Source of the DNA: Pelagibacterales bacterium SAG-MED41
GTDB lineage: Bacteria; Pseudomonadota; Alphaproteobacteria; Pelagibacterales; Pelagibacteraceae
Reading direction: 5' to 3'
DNA: 64,000 bases
NCBI GenBank assembly: GCA_014653545.1
Contig: JACWEJ010000001.1
Span: forward strand, 100,014-164,013
In this document: in pieces, positions 17,606-26,035 of the stretch
How positions within the stretch are numbered: position 1 is the stretch's first letter
How the letters are laid out: each line of letters begins with the position of its first letter
The notes under the pieces: generated by a model
What the model saw: the letters and a program-made list of their open reading frames with translations, nothing else
What the model was told of the DNA's origin: nothing
Databases searched by the model: none
Position numbers and translations under genes: made by a program

Positions 17606-17854
17606 ATGGATTTCTATGTTTATATGCTCAAATCAAAGAGCATTAAGCCAGTAACTTATGTCGGTTACACAAAAAATTTAAGAAAGAGAATCATTCTTCA
17701 TAATTCTGGTAAGGGTGCAAAATTTACCAGAGGAAGAAAATGGAAGTTAATATATAAAGAAATATTTAAGTCAAAAAAAGAAGCTATTTCTAGAGAATAT
17801 TATATAAAGAATAATAAAACTTTAAGAAAAAAAATAAAATTAAAGTATTTGTGA
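17606..17854 (+). CDS. GIY-YIG domain endonuclease-like small protein
   Basis: 82 residues, a single GIY-YIG domain. The first strand motif is FYVYMLKS (about 3-10), the YIG equivalent is YVGYTKNLRKRIILH (about 18-32) with catalytic Arg, and a Glu sits in YKEIF. Members of this UPF0213/YhbQ-like group are small, common and poorly characterised; DNA cleavage or repair is inferred from the fold only. It is the first gene of the polysaccharide island and overlaps the glycosyltransferase GTG start by 4 bp. Confidence 0.85.
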   Translation: MDFYVYMLKSKSIKPVTYVGYTKNLRKRIILHNSGKGAKFTRGRKWKLIYKEIFKSKKEAISREYYIKNNKTLRKKIKLKYL

Positions 17855-19980
17855 AAATAGGAATATTGTTACCTTATAAAGAAAACTTTTCACCAGAATA
17901 TCCTGGAGCCGTTTCTTTATTTGTTTTTGAAACAAGTAAAAAAAGTAAGTACAAAAAAGATATAGTTGTTTTCGGTAATACAAAATTTAAAACAAAATTT
18001 AAAATTAAATATCAAAATATAAATCTTAGTAAGAATTTATTAAGCAGCCAAACAAATAACTACGTAAACAAATTTATTAACCTTCAAAAAAAATACAATT
18101 TTTCAATAATTGAAGTACATAATAGACCTAGTTATATTAATCAGTTGAGTATCAAAATACCTAATAATATATTTTCTCTGTATTTCCATAATGATCCACT
18201 TTCAATGGATGGATCTAAAACTGTTTATGAAAGAAAAAAATTATTAAAAACCTGTTATAAAATAATTTTTAATAGTAATTGGTCAAAAAAAAGATTTTTA
18301 GAGGGTTTAGAAAATAAATTTATAAATAGTAATAAATTAGAAGTTTTTTTTCAATCTGCAAGAAAAAGCAATTTATCTGTAATTAAAAAAAAGAAAAATT
18401 GGATAACTTTTGTAGGTAAACTAAATAAAGCCAAAGGTTATGACGTATTCTCCCAATCTATTAAACAAGTTTTAAAAAGATTTCCAAATTGGAGAGCAAA
18501 AATTATCGGCGATGAAAAAAGAGAAAAAATTGATTTAATTTTTAAAAATGCAGATCTTTTAGGCTTTGTTAACCACGAGGAAGTAATAAAAATTTTTAAA
18601 AAATCTAGTATTGCTGTTGCGTGCTCGAGATGGGAAGAACCCTTTGGTAGAACGAGTTTAGAAGCATCTGCTAATGGTTGTGCTGTTATTATAACCGATA
18701 GAGGTGGATTGCCAGAAACTATAACCAATGCAAGAATCTTAATTAATTTATCACATAAAAATTTAACTAAAGAGATAATAAATTTAATAAAAAATGAAAA
18801 TCTAAGAAAAAGTTTACAAACCTTATCAATTAAAAATTTTTACCTTACACATGAATATGTAACAAGAATGATAGATAAATATAGAGATGAAAAACTTCAA
18901 TTAACTAAAAAATTTTACATAAAAAAAATAAAAAAATCTTTACGAATTTTACATATTACAAATTTTAATGAACGTCTGGATGGTAGATTATTTTTTAATA
19001 CTGGCAGAAGAATTAATAATGGTTTTATTAGGCAAGGTCATAGTGTTCTTGGTTTTAGTGATAGAGATATTCAAAAATATTATAAATCCTTTAATGATTT
19101 AAAGGGAGCTAAAACTCTAAATGATAAATTAAGAAAAACTTGTTACAATTATAAACCTGACTTGATTGTTTTAGGTCATGCAGACTTGATATCTAAAGAT
19201 CAAATTTCTGAGTTAAAAGAAGATTATCCAAACACAAAATTTTGTCAGTGGTTTTTAGATCCACTAAATAAAAAAGGACCTGATTTCGAAAGAAATAAAA
19301 ACAGAATATTAGATAAAATAAAAGTAGTTGACTCAACTTTTTTAACAACAAGTCCCGATGTATTAAGTTTTTTGAATAAAGATAATAGTTTTTATATTCC
19401 AAATCCTAGTGACAAATCTTTTGAAACGCTTAATAATTTTAATAACGCATGTAATGTAGATGTTTTTTTTGCACTAAGTCATGGTGTTCATAGAGGTGTC
19501 TTAAAGAGTGGTAAAACTGACGATAGAATACTTTTTTTAAACAGTCTTAAAGCTAATACACCTAACGTTAAATTCGACATATATGGTGTATCTAAAATTC
19601 AACCGATTTGGGCAGATCATTATTTTAAAACAATTGCAAATGCAAAAATGGGTTTAAATTTAAGTAGAGGAGAGGCTATAAAATATTATAGTAGTGATAG
19701 AATTACTCAAATTGTCGGTAATGGACTTGTATGTTTGATTGACGAAAGGACTAATTATAATAATTTTTTCAGTAATAATGAAATGGTTTTTTATAAGTCA
19801 ATAAATGATTTATCGGAAAAAATAACAAAAATATCATCTGATGAAAAGCTTCGAAAAAAAATTGCTAAAAATGGTAAACTTAAATATATGAAATATTTTA
19901 ATTCGGATCTTGTATCAGAATATATAATAGATAAAACATTAGGTATTAAATCAAACAAAATATATTTATGGGAAAAATAA
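17851..19980 (+). CDS. fused two-domain glycosyltransferase
   Basis: 709 residues starting at GTG 17851, which overlaps the upstream TGA (GTGA). The N-terminal half (about 1-345) is a GT4/GT-B transferase: FVGKLNKAKGYDVF, IIGDEKREK and the donor-site E-x7-E motif in EEPFGRTSLEASANG (about 270-285). The C-terminal half (about 365-700) looks like a second GT-B domain of the CgeB type: LRILHITNFNERLDG, DLIVLGHADLIS, FCQWFLDPLN and late GLNLSRGEAIKYYSSDRI. Such fusions build surface glycans by two successive transfers on the cytoplasmic membrane face. Its end overlaps gmd by 13 bp. Donor sugars unknown. Confidence 0.85.
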   Translation: MKIGILLPYKENFSPEYPGAVSLFVFETSKKSKYKKDIVVFGNTKFKTKFKIKYQNINLSKNLLSSQTNNYVNKFINLQKKYNFSIIEVHNRPSYINQLSIKIPNNIFSLYFHNDPLSMDGSKTVYERKKLLKTCYKIIFNSNWSKKRFLEGLENKFINSNKLEVFFQSARKSNLSVIKKKKNWITFVGKLNKAKGYDVFSQSIKQVLKRFPNWRAKIIGDEKREKIDLIFKNADLLGFVNHEEVIKIFKKSSIAVACSRWEEPFGRTSLEASANGCAVIITDRGGLPETITNARILINLSHKNLTKEIINLIKNENLRKSLQTLSIKNFYLTHEYVTRMIDKYRDEKLQLTKKFYIKKIKKSLRILHITNFNERLDGRLFFNTGRRINNGFIRQGHSVLGFSDRDIQKYYKSFNDLKGAKTLNDKLRKTCYNYKPDLIVLGHADLISKDQISELKEDYPNTKFCQWFLDPLNKKGPDFERNKNRILDKIKVVDSTFLTTSPDVLSFLNKDNSFYIPNPSDKSFETLNNFNNACNVDVFFALSHGVHRGVLKSGKTDDRILFLNSLKANTPNVKFDIYGVSKIQPIWADHYFKTIANAKMGLNLSRGEAIKYYSSDRITQIVGNGLVCLIDERTNYNNFFSNNEMVFYKSINDLSEKITKISSDEKLRKKIAKNGKLKYMKYFNSDLVSEYIIDKTLGIKSNKIYLWEK

Positions 19981-21017
19981 AAAAAAAGAAAATAGCACTT
20001 ATTTTTGGTATTACGGGTCAAGACGGCTCTTATCTAGCTGAACTTCTTTTAAAAAAAAACTATATTATTCACGGAGTAAAGAGAAGATCTTCAAGCGCGA
20101 ACACAGAAAGAATAGATCATTTATTTGATAGTTTGAATTTTTCTAATAAGAATTTTTTTATACACTATGGAGATATATCCGATGGCACTAGTACATTGAG
20201 TATAATAAATAAAGTAAAACCAAACGAAATTTATAACCTAGCAGCACAGAGTCATGTAAGGGTCTCTTTTGATGTCCCTGAATATACAGCTGATATTACT
20301 GCTTTAGGAGCACTAAGAATTTTAGAAGCAATTAGAATTCTAAAATTAAAAAAAACAAAATATTATCAAGCTTCAAGTTCTGAAATGTATGGGTTAGTAA
20401 AAAAAAAAAATTCTCTTAATGAATTAACACCTTTTCATCCAAGATCTGTTTATGGTGTTTCTAAAGTTTTCGCTTTTCATACTGCGGTTCATTACAGAGA
20501 AGCTTATGGAATTTTTGCATCCAATGGTATTTTATTTAATCATGAGTCGCCAAGAAGGGGACCAACATTTGTTACCAAAAAAATAGTTCAAGGATTAGTG
20601 CGTATAAAAAAAGGTTATCAAAAAAAATTAACTTTAGGGAATTTATACGCAATAAGAGATTGGGGTCATGCCAAGGACTATGCAACATCAATGTGGAAAA
20701 TTCTACAATATAAAAAACCAGATGACTGGGTAATTGCAACTAACAAAGAAACCACCGTAAAAAATTTCGTAAATAAAGTATCAAAAAAACTTGAAATTAA
20801 ACTTAAATGGATAGGAAAGGGAGAAAATGAAAAAGGTATTGATCAAGAAAGCAAAAAGGTAATTGTAGAAATTGACAAGAAATACTTTAGACCTTCTGAG
20901 GTCGATTTCTTAAGAGGTGATTTTTCAAAAGCTAAAAAATTACTTAAATGGAAACCCATCTACAACACTGACGATTTGATAGAGGATATGATATCTTCTG
21001 AATTAGAGAATAATTAA
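19968..21017 (+). CDS. gmd: GDP-mannose 4,6-dehydratase
   Basis: 349 residues, standard length. Converts GDP-D-mannose to GDP-4-keto-6-deoxy-D-mannose, precursor of fucose, rhamnose, perosamine and colitose. Extended-SDR features: GITGQDGSYLAELLL (about 14-28), VKRRSSSANTERIDHL (NADP contacts), YNLAAQSHVRVSFD, catalytic YxxxK in YGVSKVFAFH, and NHESPRRG with KDYATSMW. Its product is the natural substrate of the ColD-like enzyme encoded directly after it (stop/start overlap TAATG). GDP-mannose could come from ManC at the right edge. Confidence 0.95.
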   Translation: MGKIKKKKIALIFGITGQDGSYLAELLLKKNYIIHGVKRRSSSANTERIDHLFDSLNFSNKNFFIHYGDISDGTSTLSIINKVKPNEIYNLAAQSHVRVSFDVPEYTADITALGALRILEAIRILKLKKTKYYQASSSEMYGLVKKKNSLNELTPFHPRSVYGVSKVFAFHTAVHYREAYGIFASNGILFNHESPRRGPTFVTKKIVQGLVRIKKGYQKKLTLGNLYAIRDWGHAKDYATSMWKILQYKKPDDWVIATNKETTVKNFVNKVSKKLEIKLKWIGKGENEKGIDQESKKVIVEIDKKYFRPSEVDFLRGDFSKAKKLLKWKPIYNTDDLIEDMISSELENN

Positions 21018-22210
21018 TGCCAAAAAGCTTTTTTTATCCTCTTCTTGAAGATCCTTTCAGAAAAAAGGATCTAGATAAAGCTATAGAAGTGATAAAAACA
21101 GGCAAACTTACTATAGGCAAACATACCAAAAAATTTGAAAAAGTTTTTACGAAGAAAATTAAAACAAAATTTTCTTTAATGGTAAATTCCGGATCTTCAG
21201 CTAATCTTTTAGCTTTACAATGTCTAATAAACCCTTATCGAAAAAAAAGGTTAGAAAGGGGAGACTCAGTTCTTATACCAACTGTTTGTTGGTCTACCTC
21301 ACTATGGCCTATAATACAATCAGGATTAAATCCTGTTTTCGTCGATATTGATCCTGTCACATTAAATATTGATTTAAAAGATCTAGAAAAAAAAATTAAT
21401 AAACGAACAAAGGCTTTATTGTTAGTTCATGTTTTAGGAAACTCAACGAACATGAATCAATTAATGAAGATTCTTAGGAAAAAAAATATTATTTTAATTG
21501 AAGATACTTGCGAGTCCTTAGGATCAAAATACAAAAATAAATATCTGGGTACATTTGGAGAATTTTCATCATTTTCTTTTTATTCATCACATCAAATATC
21601 TTCAGGTGAAGGAGGTATGATAACTTGTCGAAATTTAGAAGATTACGAAATTCTTAAAGCTCTTAGGTCTCATGGTTGGTCAAGAGGATTAAAAAGTGAA
21701 AAAAATATATCTAAAAAAAATAGACATTTAGACTCAAGATTTATTTTTTATAATTCTGGTTTTAATCTACGGCCAACTGATATTTCAGCTTCTATTGGAT
21801 TAAGTCAGTTTAATGATATGAATAATTTTATATCACTCAGAAATAAAAATAGAAATTTAATTGTTAATTCACTTAAAAAGAATAAGGTTATTAGCGAAAA
21901 ATTTTATTTTGTAGAGGCAAATAAAAACGTAAAACCTTCTTGGTTTGGAATACCCATTTATATTAAAAATAAAAAAAATAGAAAAAAATTTATTCAAAAT
22001 ATAGAAAAAAAAGGTATTGAAACAAGACCTATAATAAGCGGAAACTTTATAAGACAGCCATCAGTTAAAAAATATAAACTTATAAATAAAGCAAAATTTT
22101 TTAATTCAGACATAGTTAATGATCATGGTTTTTTTATAGGTTTACCAACAAAAAAAATTAATAATATTTTTGTAAATAGAATAATTAAAGCTTTTGAACA
22201 AAGTATTTAA
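21017..22210 (+). CDS. ColD/RfbH-like sugar-nucleotide 3-dehydratase (DegT fold, His in place of PLP lysine)
   Basis: 397 residues, DegT/DnrJ/EryC1 fold. The usual Schiff-base Lys position carries His: FSFYSSHQISSGEGG (about 189-203). This substitution marks the 3-dehydratases ColD (GDP-4-keto-6-deoxymannose) and RfbH/AscC (CDP sugars) and excludes an ordinary aminotransferase. PIIQSGLNPVFVDIDP and LIEDTCESLGSKY also match that subgroup. The length near 390, the lack of the extra Cys cluster of the Fe-S E1 type and the adjacent gmd favour a ColD-like reaction: PLP/glutamate-driven C-3 deoxygenation. Ends with a 17 bp overlap with the reductase gene. Confidence 0.85.
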   Translation: MPKSFFYPLLEDPFRKKDLDKAIEVIKTGKLTIGKHTKKFEKVFTKKIKTKFSLMVNSGSSANLLALQCLINPYRKKRLERGDSVLIPTVCWSTSLWPIIQSGLNPVFVDIDPVTLNIDLKDLEKKINKRTKALLLVHVLGNSTNMNQLMKILRKKNIILIEDTCESLGSKYKNKYLGTFGEFSSFSFYSSHQISSGEGGMITCRNLEDYEILKALRSHGWSRGLKSEKNISKKNRHLDSRFIFYNSGFNLRPTDISASIGLSQFNDMNNFISLRNKNRNLIVNSLKKNKVISEKFYFVEANKNVKPSWFGIPIYIKNKKNRKKFIQNIEKKGIETRPIISGNFIRQPSVKKYKLINKAKFFNSDIVNDHGFFIGLPTKKINNIFVNRIIKAFEQSI

Positions 22211-23030
22211 AAAAATTATCGGAATTACGGGTGCTAATGGTGCACTAGGAAGTCAGTTCATAAAAAAAAATAAAACTAAATACATTTTCAGAATTTACAA
22301 AGATAAAATTGAAAATAAAAAAAAATTTAAGTCATGGCTTTATAAAAATTTAGATATTCAGCAATTTGTTCATTTTGCTGCGATTTCATCAATAGAAAGA
22401 ACAAATAAAAATCCCGAAAAAACCTATAAAGTAAATTCATCAGCAACTATTGATATTATAAAAATATTGAACAAAGCTAAATTAATAAATTTTGATTATT
22501 TTTTATTTTCCTCTTCATCTCATGTATATAAACCATCCTTTAAAGCCTTATATGAGAATTCAACAAGAGAACCCTCAACAGTTTATGGAAGATCAAAAAA
22601 AAAAGTGGAGGATTTTATCTTAAAAAATCGTAAAAAAATAAGATTCAAAATAGGTGTTGCTAGAATTTTTAATTTTTATTCTCACAAGCACGATAAAGGT
22701 TTTTTTATTCAGGATATGAAAAAGAAAATGAAAATTAATAATAAGTTTTTAAGAATAAAAAAAATTAATGTTTCTAGGGACTATATTAATTTAAATCAGC
22801 TTTGTGAGATTTTATTTTTTATATTTAATAAAAAGATTTCAAAAATTGTTAACGTCGGAAGTGGAAGGGAATTAAATTTGATAGATTTAATCAAATTAAT
22901 AAAGATTAAAAACAAATTAAAAAATAAATTAATATACGAAGATAAAAAATATCCAGGACTATTTGCTAATATAAATTTATTAAGAAAATTAGGTTATAGA
23001 AAAAAAATGATAAAATTCAAATTCAAATGA
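22194..23030 (+). CDS. extended SDR, NAD-dependent epimerase/dehydratase or reductase
   Basis: 278 residues from TTG 22194; no in-frame ATG lies before the nucleotide-binding motif IIGITGANGALGSQF (about 8-22), so a rare start inside the upstream gene is needed. Visible: FVHFAAISSIERT, SSSSHVYKP, the catalytic YxxxK in YGRSKKKVEDF, and IVNVGSGRELNLIDLI. Position after gmd and the ColD-like gene suggests it reduces (or epimerises and reduces, as ColC does) the GDP-4-keto-3,6-dideoxy sugar to the final GDP-3,6-dideoxyhexose. That role is inference from context. Confidence 0.8.
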   Translation: MNKVFKKIIGITGANGALGSQFIKKNKTKYIFRIYKDKIENKKKFKSWLYKNLDIQQFVHFAAISSIERTNKNPEKTYKVNSSATIDIIKILNKAKLINFDYFLFSSSSHVYKPSFKALYENSTREPSTVYGRSKKKVEDFILKNRKKIRFKIGVARIFNFYSHKHDKGFFIQDMKKKMKINNKFLRIKKINVSRDYINLNQLCEILFFIFNKKISKIVNVGSGRELNLIDLIKLIKIKNKLKNKLIYEDKKYPGLFANINLLRKLGYRKKMIKFKFK

Positions 23031-24067
23031 AAAAATTTATTATATTCAGAACGGATAGACTAGGAGACTTTTTAATAATTACTAATATTATTAGAGCAAT
23101 AAAAAGAAAATATAAAAACTCACATATAACAGTGGTAGGATCACCTTATAATAAAAAAATTATCAATTCTTACAAAACTATTAATAAAGTACTAATTTAT
23201 GATAAAAATAGTACGTTGCGTAAAAAAATTTCAATCTTTAGCAACATAGTTAAATCTAATTATTTTTGTTCATTAAGTTTAGATGGAAAATCTTTTTCTA
23301 ATTTTGCAAATCTTTTTTTAAAAGCAAAAAAAAAATTTGGAATTGCTTACAAGTTTAATCTATTTGATTTTGTATTAAATTTAAAATGGTCTAAGCCAAA
23401 TTTTTTTTATAATTATTTTATATTTGATAAATTTGAGACTTTTACAAGCAAGAAAAATTTGTCAAATGCAGAACATTTACCATCTATATTAGTAAAATTA
23501 GCTAATAATCTAAATCTTAAACTAAATTCAAAAAATAATTATTTTTATGAAATTAAGAAAAAAAATATTTATCTATCTAAAAAATTATATAATAAAAGAA
23601 TAAAGTCAAATTTTATATTGATTCATCTTGATGAAAAATGGAACGATATAATTTTTATTAATACGAATTTATCTCAAGAATTGTTAAATTTTCAAAAAAA
23701 AGTTGATAAAAAGATAGTAATTACTTCAAACAATAATAGAGAATTATACTATAAGTATTTAAAGAAAAATTTAAAAAAAAATAGGAAAATTATTTTTTTG
23801 GAAAATTTAAATCTAGCAATATTTGAGAGAATGATAGCAATGTCATCATATTCCATCAGCTGTCACTCAGGTTTTTTGGTACAAATATCAGGTTTTAATA
23901 ATACAAATATTATTGACATTATAAATAAAAAAGATTTTCAGTGGTATAGTTGTTGGAAACCTCTAAACACAAAACATAAATTCGTCTACAAATCCAATTT
24001 AAATAAAAAAATCCAATTAAATTCAATATTCAAACAAATTGTAACAGTGGCTAATAAGTTCAAATGA
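23027..24067 (+). CDS. glycosyltransferase family 9 (heptosyltransferase-like)
   Basis: 346 residues. N-terminal IIFRTDRLGDFLIITNIIRAIKRKY (about 4-28) is the characteristic GT9 start of ADP-heptose:LPS heptosyltransferases. The C-terminal donor site is weaker, with MSSYSISCHSGFLVQISG (about 277-294) in place of the usual DTGxxH. Very rich in Lys, Asn, Ile and Phe. Probably adds a sugar to lipopolysaccharide core or another surface glycan at the inner membrane. Four-bp overlaps join it to both neighbours. Confidence 0.8.
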   Translation: MKKFIIFRTDRLGDFLIITNIIRAIKRKYKNSHITVVGSPYNKKIINSYKTINKVLIYDKNSTLRKKISIFSNIVKSNYFCSLSLDGKSFSNFANLFLKAKKKFGIAYKFNLFDFVLNLKWSKPNFFYNYFIFDKFETFTSKKNLSNAEHLPSILVKLANNLNLKLNSKNNYFYEIKKKNIYLSKKLYNKRIKSNFILIHLDEKWNDIIFINTNLSQELLNFQKKVDKKIVITSNNNRELYYKYLKKNLKKNRKIIFLENLNLAIFERMIAMSSYSISCHSGFLVQISGFNNTNIIDIINKKDFQWYSCWKPLNTKHKFVYKSNLNKKIQLNSIFKQIVTVANKFK

Positions 24068-25035
24068 TAAAAATTTGGGGAACTTCATTTAGTTTAATAG
24101 GTGATCTAATCATGAGCTTACCTCAATTAACTTATTATAAAAAAAAACATAAAAATACCTATATCTACTTTGTAATACATAAAAAAATATCTTATTGCGC
24201 TCCACTTTTTTTTAATCATCCTGATATAGACAAAATTCTTATTTCAGGTGAATGGAGCTCGTTTAATTCTGATGATTTTAAAATTGCATCAGAATGCGAT
24301 ATTGTTACTACTAAATTAGATCATATAAATAAAAAAATTTTAGATCGCCAACATGAGAATAATCGTTGGTACAATCAAAGATCTTGTATAGAAGAAACGG
24401 CTCTAATGTCTGGAATTACAGACCTAAATGATACCTTAACTAATAATGAAAAAATTCCTTTCTTGAACAAATGGTTTGACTCTGGATTTGAAGATGAGCA
24501 AAAAAAAGCTGCCTATACTTATGACAAAGTAGACTCAAAACGAAATAATATTTTAAGTAAATCATTGGCTATATGGCCTTTTGCAGGTTACGGTAGAAGT
24601 AAGAACCGCAATCCCTCTGAAAAATGGTGGGGTAGGTTAGTTTCAAAATTAATTGATAGTTCAATCAATGTTTATCATTTCGGTTACTTTAAAGAACCTA
24701 AGCTATCTGAAAATAAAAGATATTATCATAAATTAACTAACCTTGATTTTTTTAATCAAATTAAAATTTCCTTAGGATCTAAACTCGCTCTTGGCACAGA
24801 TTCAGGGTCTATGTGGGTACTAGCTGCCTACAATCATCCAATGATTATATTAGGAACTAACTGGTACGACAATCATGCAAGCAATTTTCAAGCTACTATC
24901 CCACCAATTAAAAAGGGAGAATGTATATTTAATCAAAATAATTTTTTAAATTTAAATATTGATGAAGTTTATAAGAAAATTTTGTCTTACGGTGTTAAAA
25001 ATGAAAATTTTATTGATAAAATTTTAAGATTTTAA
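24064..25035 (+). CDS. GT9-like glycosyltransferase
   Basis: 323 residues. IKIWGTSFSLIGDLIMSLPQLTYYKKKH (about 2-29) resembles the GT9 opening (GDxxxxLPxL). The C-terminal half has IWPFAGYGRSKNRNPSEKWW, like the acceptor/donor loop, and LGTDSGSMWVLAAYNHP (about 243-259), the DTGxxHLA-like donor motif. Substrate unknown. It is the last gene of the forward polysaccharide operon and converges with the recombinase gene 9 nt away. Confidence 0.75.
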   Translation: MIKIWGTSFSLIGDLIMSLPQLTYYKKKHKNTYIYFVIHKKISYCAPLFFNHPDIDKILISGEWSSFNSDDFKIASECDIVTTKLDHINKKILDRQHENNRWYNQRSCIEETALMSGITDLNDTLTNNEKIPFLNKWFDSGFEDEQKKAAYTYDKVDSKRNNILSKSLAIWPFAGYGRSKNRNPSEKWWGRLVSKLIDSSINVYHFGYFKEPKLSENKRYYHKLTNLDFFNQIKISLGSKLALGTDSGSMWVLAAYNHPMIILGTNWYDNHASNFQATIPPIKKGECIFNQNNFLNLNIDEVYKKILSYGVKNENFIDKILRF

Positions 25036-25044
25036 GTTTGTTTT

Positions 25045-25959
25045 TTATTCATTTGAAATTTTATTTAAAGCATTATTCTTGAATAAATCAGCCTCTTTAA
25101 TGTATCTTCGCACCATATCAACTGATTTATGACCAGTCATAGTCATTATATTCCTTTCACTAGCTCCATATTCAGCTGTTGTGGTTGCAAAACCTGATCT
25201 TAGACTGTGACCAGCATATTTTTTTTCATCTAAACCTGCGCTTAAAGCATGCTTCTTTAATATTAAAGCTACGTTTTTATCTGATATAGGAAAAACTAAA
25301 TTATTTTTATTTTCAATCATCCAGTTTTTAAGATGGTCAACCGGGCAATATTCTACATATTTAAAAGAGGGGATTGCTTTAGTCATTCCCTCTCCGGATT
25401 GGTCAGATTTAGATTTTTTTACAAATATTTTTACTCCTTCGTTAACAAATTCAACATCATCTCTAGTAATGGACACAAGTTCTGATCTTCTAAATCCACC
25501 TGAGAAACCTAATAAAATTAAAGATTTATCCCTTAATTTTTTAAATTGACTAACTGATGAATTATTAATTACTTTAATTATTTTTTTTAATTCATTAAAT
25601 AATAGAGGTTTTTTTGCTTTTTGATGAACACCTATTTGTCTCTTTATACCTAATAAATTTTCAACTATTATTGGATGTTTAATATCTAAATAATGTCCTT
25701 TGTATCTATGCATAACGTTTATAGACGCTAAACGTCTTTTTAAAGTGCTGTATTTAGATTGTTTTGATAAATATGTTAAATAAAGCGAAACTGTCTTTGG
25801 ATCAGTGGGCATGCTCTTCATCCCATGTTTTGAGCAAAATAATATAAAATCGTTAAAATCAGATTTATAAGCTCGAATAGTATTTTTAGCTTTAGAAAGC
25901 TTTAGATTGTCTAAAGTCTCAATTTCAAGTTTTTTAATTTCAGTTGTTAAATCTTTCAT
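25045..25959 (-). CDS. tyrosine recombinase/site-specific integrase
   Basis: 304 residues. The N-terminal SAM-like core-binding domain (about 15-110) has TIRAYKSDFNDFILFC; the catalytic domain (about 125-300) carries all expected residues: Arg in GFRRSELVSI, HxxR in HSLRSGFATTTAEYG, the second His in MTGHKSVDMV and nucleophile Tyr in RRYIKEAD. It cleaves and rejoins DNA through a 3'-phosphotyrosine. It could be an island integrase, a Xer-like resolvase or a phage-derived enzyme. Its start codon lies one base from a perfect 11-7-11 inverted repeat (25961-25989), a plausible binding site. No other phage genes are present. Confidence 0.92.
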   Translation of the reverse strand: MKDLTTEIKKLEIETLDNLKLSKAKNTIRAYKSDFNDFILFCSKHGMKSMPTDPKTVSLYLTYLSKQSKYSTLKRRLASINVMHRYKGHYLDIKHPIIVENLLGIKRQIGVHQKAKKPLLFNELKKIIKVINNSSVSQFKKLRDKSLILLGFSGGFRRSELVSITRDDVEFVNEGVKIFVKKSKSDQSGEGMTKAIPSFKYVEYCPVDHLKNWMIENKNNLVFPISDKNVALILKKHALSAGLDEKKYAGHSLRSGFATTTAEYGASERNIMTMTGHKSVDMVRRYIKEADLFKNNALNKISNE

Positions 25960-25960
25960 A

Positions 25961-25989
25961 ATTTCCGATAACCATTAATTATCGGAAAT
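25961..25989. repeat. perfect inverted repeat, dif-like 11-7-11 architecture
   Basis: ATTTCCGATAA and its exact complement TTATCGGAAAT flank the 7 bp spacer CCATTAA. The inner ends ATAA/TTAT and 11 bp arms match the layout of Xer/dif and other tyrosine-recombinase core sites (6-8 bp spacers). It starts one base upstream of the recombinase start codon, so in the recombinase mRNA it would also form a stable hairpin next to the ATG. Alternatives are an operator or a simple RNA hairpin. Confidence 0.6.
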
Positions 25990-26035
25990 ATATATTAAGT
26001 GATTTTAGATGTCAATATGTATAATTTCAAAGTTC

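Follow-up and report, generated by a model that had tools for sequence, protein, structure and literature searches.

The marine bacteria of the SAR11 group, the ocean's most abundant bacteria, carry at their chromosome terminus a module of one tyrosine recombinase and one adjoining dif-like site, and with a probability of about 90% we take this module to be their dif/Xer system for chromosome dimer resolution. It is best read as a single-recombinase Xer/dif system that operates like XerH/difH or XerL and comes from another recombinase family. Chromosome dimer resolution was previously reported as a function that SAR11 gave up when its genome was streamlined, P. ubique being described as lacking dif/Xer (Carnoy & Roten, 2009; PMC2731167). 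A review of single-recombinase systems omits Pelagibacter (PMC5357621), and the literature searched contained no description of an Xer system in SAR11. Very likely the module is the replacement for the function reported lost. The XerCD pair would thereby have been swapped for one enzyme and one adjoining plasmid-type site, about 1 kb in total. This extends the single-recombinase Xer systems by another type and supplies SAR11 genomes with a defined terminus marker.

A tyrosine recombinase gene adjoins an exact palindrome

The window, i.e. the whole stretch of 64,000 nucleotides that was analyzed, harbors an exact 11-7-11 palindrome, ATTTCCGATAA-CCATTAA-TTATCGGAAAT, as read from its sequence, which is separated by the single base 25960 from the start codon of the recombinase gene (ATG 25957-25959, minus strand; Table 1). 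An earlier sequence-only reading had described a tyrosine recombinase whose start lies one base away from a perfect dif-like 11-7-11 palindrome. Both the palindrome and its distance were found to be exact, and the adjacent ORF matched the tyrosine recombinase families PF00589 (E 1.9e-21) and PF02899 (E 1e-6). The residues R157, K184, H251, R254, H277 and Y286 are invariant among 19 SAR11 homologues and were assigned putative catalytic roles via motif reading. No other match to the palindrome was detected in the window at up to three mismatches, nor in 100 dinucleotide shuffles. A chance palindrome was rejected, since no shuffle matched and the reversed pattern gave two viral matches versus at least 120.

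Table 1. Features of the recombinase-site module in the window.
Feature	Position	Strand	Remarks
Single Xer-type tyrosine recombinase	25045-25959	-	304 aa; PF00589/PF02899
dif-like crossover site, class 1	25961-25989		11-bp arms and 7-bp spacer; exact palindrome
Outer arm	25961-25971		ATTTCCGATAA
Asymmetric spacer	25972-25978		CCATTAA; TTAATGG on recombinase strand; presumed strand-exchange region
Promoter-side arm	25979-25989		TTATCGGAAAT
Predicted -10 box	25987-25992	-	TATATT; overlaps site edge; read from sequence
Predicted -35 box	26010-26015	-	TTGACA; 17 bp from -10 box; read from sequence

Because the predicted TTGACA-17-TATATT promoter runs into the site, autoregulation of the recombinase is plausible, and the site-bound enzyme probably limits its own expression. 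In relatives with the second site class described below, the -10 box is strongly conserved and the -35 consensus is TTGAC.

Enzyme and site are conserved as a unit in Pelagibacteraceae

The recombinase was identified in 150 of 197 Pelagibacteraceae genomes, nearly always as a single copy, and in 69 of the 77 near-complete ones; the window's own draft is 60% complete. The gene is under strong purifying selection (dN/dS 0.05-0.09), and the public names of loci with the window's site type place them in Pelagibacteraceae. At up to three mismatches, the class 1 core TTCCGATAACCATTAATTATCGGAA was found in 54 genomes and the class 2 site TACTAAYGATAATTAATKGTTATCAATAGTA, a differing counterpart at the same position beside the recombinase, in 94 further genomes, with one copy each, so that a unique palindromic site in non-coding DNA occurs once per genome in 148 genomes. 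None of the genomes listed as matches had both classes together, and the reversed-pattern control for class 2 matched no genome. Where measured, the site lies 6-20 bp from the start codon, and GATAA-N7-TTATC was present at most 20 bp upstream of the ATG of all 66 distinct recombinases. The class 1 core is conserved at 1.97 bits per column versus 0.48 in the upstream flank, the arm TTCCGATAA being near-invariant within the class. The asymmetric spacer is near-invariant throughout the family and conserved as strongly as the arms.

These counts support the one-enzyme/one-site unit proposed in the sequence-only reading, as the conserved site accompanies the recombinase throughout, with one copy per genome that lies beside the gene and not at many unrelated loci. 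The covariation between enzyme and arms that had been proposed as a check was also observed: in the tree, the class of the arms tracks the clade of the enzyme. As genera are intermixed between these clades, the pattern suggests a joint exchange of enzyme and site among SAR11 lineages. An ancient duplication followed by loss would look similar. Of the 47 genomes that had no recombinase match, 12 drafts were checked and 11 of these contain no tyrosine recombinase at all. Such drafts may be incomplete or truly gene-free, and since one of those devoid of any tyrosine recombinase scored 99% complete, some lineages could have lost the module.

The overlap of the site with the predicted promoter and its position against the start codon would also fit a palindrome that is a mere operator for the recombinase or another regulator, the true crossover site lying elsewhere. 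We regard this as extremely improbable: the spacer is asymmetric and conserved like the arms, neither of which an operator needs, the site coincides with the GC-skew switch (see below), and phages and plasmids have related sites that are not next to a promoter of this kind.

In a further reading, the recombinase would serve a genomic island or prophage as integrase, with the palindrome as its att site and the neighboring glycosyltransferase genes as cargo. Genes of this type do lie downstream of the recombinase in 10 of 10 closed genomes compared, and both plasmids and viral contigs encode relatives of the enzyme. However, the search for a second site copy, raised in the earlier reading as well, yielded none in any genome with a site (54 class 1, 94 class 2), hence there is no flanking att, and the att reading was rejected on this ground. 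Since the gene is near-universal and single, maps to the terminus and is subject to strong purifying selection, a role as island or prophage integrase is exceedingly unlikely, and the same four properties favor dimer resolution.

The module is located at the chromosome terminus

In 11 closed genomes, the distance between dnaA and the recombinase gene is 0.42-0.51 of the chromosome length. In three of them, 20-kb pieces sampled all around the circle showed a flip of both GC skew and gene orientation at the module, from plus to minus. Within a 40-kb stretch of 10 closed genomes, the cumulative GC-skew maximum was no more than about 5 kb away from the site. In the window this maximum is at 23956, 2 kb from the site. 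The site thus sits at the GC-skew switch, as expected for a single-recombinase Xer/dif system.

The enzyme is the sole tyrosine recombinase in 8 of the 11 closed genomes, the remaining three having extra integrases, whereas 15 of 16 other alphaproteobacteria tested encode at least two XerC/XerD-type genes. One chromosomal tyrosine recombinase is thus lineage-wide in SAR11 (150/197 genomes), and XerC/XerD are lacking in the closed genomes (sole tyrosine recombinase in 8/11). FtsK with its gamma domain is encoded in all 11 closed genomes.

Taken together, these data lead to the following model. When sister chromosomes undergo an odd number of crossovers, a dimer with two dif copies would result; these copies would be united as FtsK probably pumps DNA toward dif at the septum. 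Two protomers would bind each near-symmetric site via its TTCCGATAA (class 1) or TAAYGATAA (class 2) arms, and strand exchange across the 7-bp asymmetric spacer would then release two monomers.

Conserved gene blocks were observed to change sides relative to the module from one SAR11 genome to another (L168-L187 versus 26888-48241 of the window), as though inversions had pivoted on the terminus. This switching of sides would fit another role of the module at the terminus, e.g. programmed inversion or decatenation of terminus DNA. Such a role is very unlikely, as one site per genome leaves no inversion partner within the chromosome and FtsK gamma is retained in all closed genomes.

Two polar words were noted around the site. 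GAGCAGG points toward it in a ratio of 39:3 in three genomes and is a candidate FtsK-orienting word; GGGNAGGG does so at 15:1 and resembles FtsK-orienting motifs. Both are only suggestive, because GC skew alone biases such words. The region downstream of the recombinase in the window (17851-25035) contains sugar/glycosyltransferase-type genes, and a homologue of the ORF at 17851-19980 is present on the recombinase's downstream side in each of the 10 closed genomes compared.

The recombinase groups with plasmid and viral enzymes

Against the curated XerC and XerD models, the recombinase reached only 72.7 bits (XerC, cut-off 335) and 77.7 bits (XerD, cut-off 330), and it also stayed below the cut-offs of XerS (42.8 versus 267 bits) and archaeal XerA (81.9 versus 220 bits). 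The profile match to XerH was weak (35.7 bits), and the tree contained no XerH. A profile of the SAR11 recombinase family gave 208-324 bits to plasmid recombinases versus 19-77 bits to alphaproteobacterial XerC/XerD. In a midpoint-rooted tree, SAR11, plasmid and viral sequences were split from XerC/XerD with a support of 100/100, and the SAR11 recombinases formed one group (support 91/95). Membership in XerC/XerD was rejected on these scores, the low profile bits and the separate side of the tree; by its grouping with plasmid and viral relatives the enzyme belongs to a plasmid-type recombinase family.

The nearest named relatives are plasmid-borne, with 34-40% identity (36-40% for the recombinases of Alicyclobacillus, Sporosarcina and Protochlamydia). 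A related palindrome lies upstream of 3 of 11 such genes (Alicyclobacillus dauci at -48, Protochlamydia pPNK at -106, Sporosarcina at -270), and since related plasmid recombinases carry a similar upstream palindrome, such recombinase-plus-site modules may form a broader family on plasmids. From these relationships we infer that XerCD gave way to a plasmid-type module in a SAR11 ancestor. The XerH-like character assigned in the sequence-only reading accordingly describes the mode of operation and not the descent.

The predicted structure matched Cre best, followed by XerA and XerH; this AlphaFold model is moderate (pLDDT 79, pTM 0.58) and was used solely as support. Like the SAR11 module as interpreted here, Cre/loxP of phage P1 combines one enzyme with symmetric arms and acts in dimer resolution, although Cre is only about 20% identical to the SAR11 enzyme. 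The layout of loxP is 13-8-13. The plasmid recombinases named above are the closest named proteins, several with a related upstream palindrome, but they are located on plasmids, where their function is putative, and are neither chromosomal nor lineage-wide. XerCD/dif shares the terminus site, the inner ATAA/TTAT and FtsK gamma with SAR11, yet uses two enzymes from the other side of the tree.

XerH/difH of Helicobacter and Campylobacter and XerS/difSL of streptococci and lactococci consist of one recombinase and one site at the terminus, with the gene adjoining (PMC2731167, PMC5357621). SAR11 has this arrangement in common with them; it differs in the size of the protein (about 304-319 aa versus about 354-362 aa) and in its site, which has TTCCGATAA or TAAYGATAA arms and a 7-bp spacer. 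As judged from its published description, the nearest precedent is XerL/dif of Legionellales, with a single recombinase and long uninterrupted inverted arms in a terminus site; like the SAR11 enzyme, XerL had escaped homology searches, and here too a mobile element imitates the site (PMC9765430). In L. pneumophila more than 400 kb separate the xerL gene from dif (PMC9765430), whereas the SAR11 gene adjoins its site.

Pelagiphages carry dif-like sites

HTVC010P-type pelagiphages are among the most abundant viruses known. Such phages have been called lytic, as no integrase or lysogeny gene was found (PMC6811365, PMC8163748). The class 1 pattern TTCCGATAA-N7-TTATCGGAA was detected in at least 120 viral-contig loci versus 2 for the reversed pattern, and the loci from the site scans contain at least 55 class-2-like sites versus 2 after shuffling, these counts being lower bounds because near records were left out. 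HTVC010P-like proteins are encoded at no fewer than 74 of 123 loci from two site scans. At least about 60 of them have the site at a fixed place, 313-577 bp upstream of terL, a placement also noted in two isolates (L317, L319), and in at least about 21 loci a class-2-like site is present within 120 bp of a class 1 site (24 entries, three of them the same site seen twice). A stretch of 35 bases is identical between one phage locus (L308) and the dif region of a SAR11 genome (G163). The isolates Greip and HTVC100P have class-2-like sites with 6-bp spacers, and HTVC010P itself only degenerate site traces.

Tentatively, and at slightly less than even odds, we propose that HTVC010P-type pelagiphages carry mimics of SAR11 dif, some with both classes in tandem, and that host Xer integrates them at the terminus or resolves their genomes. 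This would be a route by which integrase-less pelagiphages may persist in their hosts and is a specific prediction of our analysis. Xer-dependent integration or resolution is put forward as a hypothesis, because the commonest phage spacers differ from those of the hosts and a protein scan of viral contigs revealed no SAR11 chromosomal junction. The exact class 1 host site with spacer CCATTAA was in no viral contig searched, where near records may be missing, and direct proof of phage integration at dif was not found in viral contigs or SAR11 genomes. An HTVC010P-type TerL is encoded in 8 of 397 SAR11 genomes; these copies probably use another route, since a dif-like site was absent from the stretches examined around HTVC010P-type structural genes, which are present in some SAR11 assemblies.

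Related recombinases are also encoded on other viral contigs, many of them GC-rich, with TTCCGATAA-N7-TTATCGGAA near or overlapping the gene (nine contigs). The non-SAR11 alphaproteobacterium G481 has one such site (L312, 1501-1525). A class 1 site also occurs on a contig that is assigned to a Diapherotrites archaeon MAG but may be phage DNA binned wrongly.
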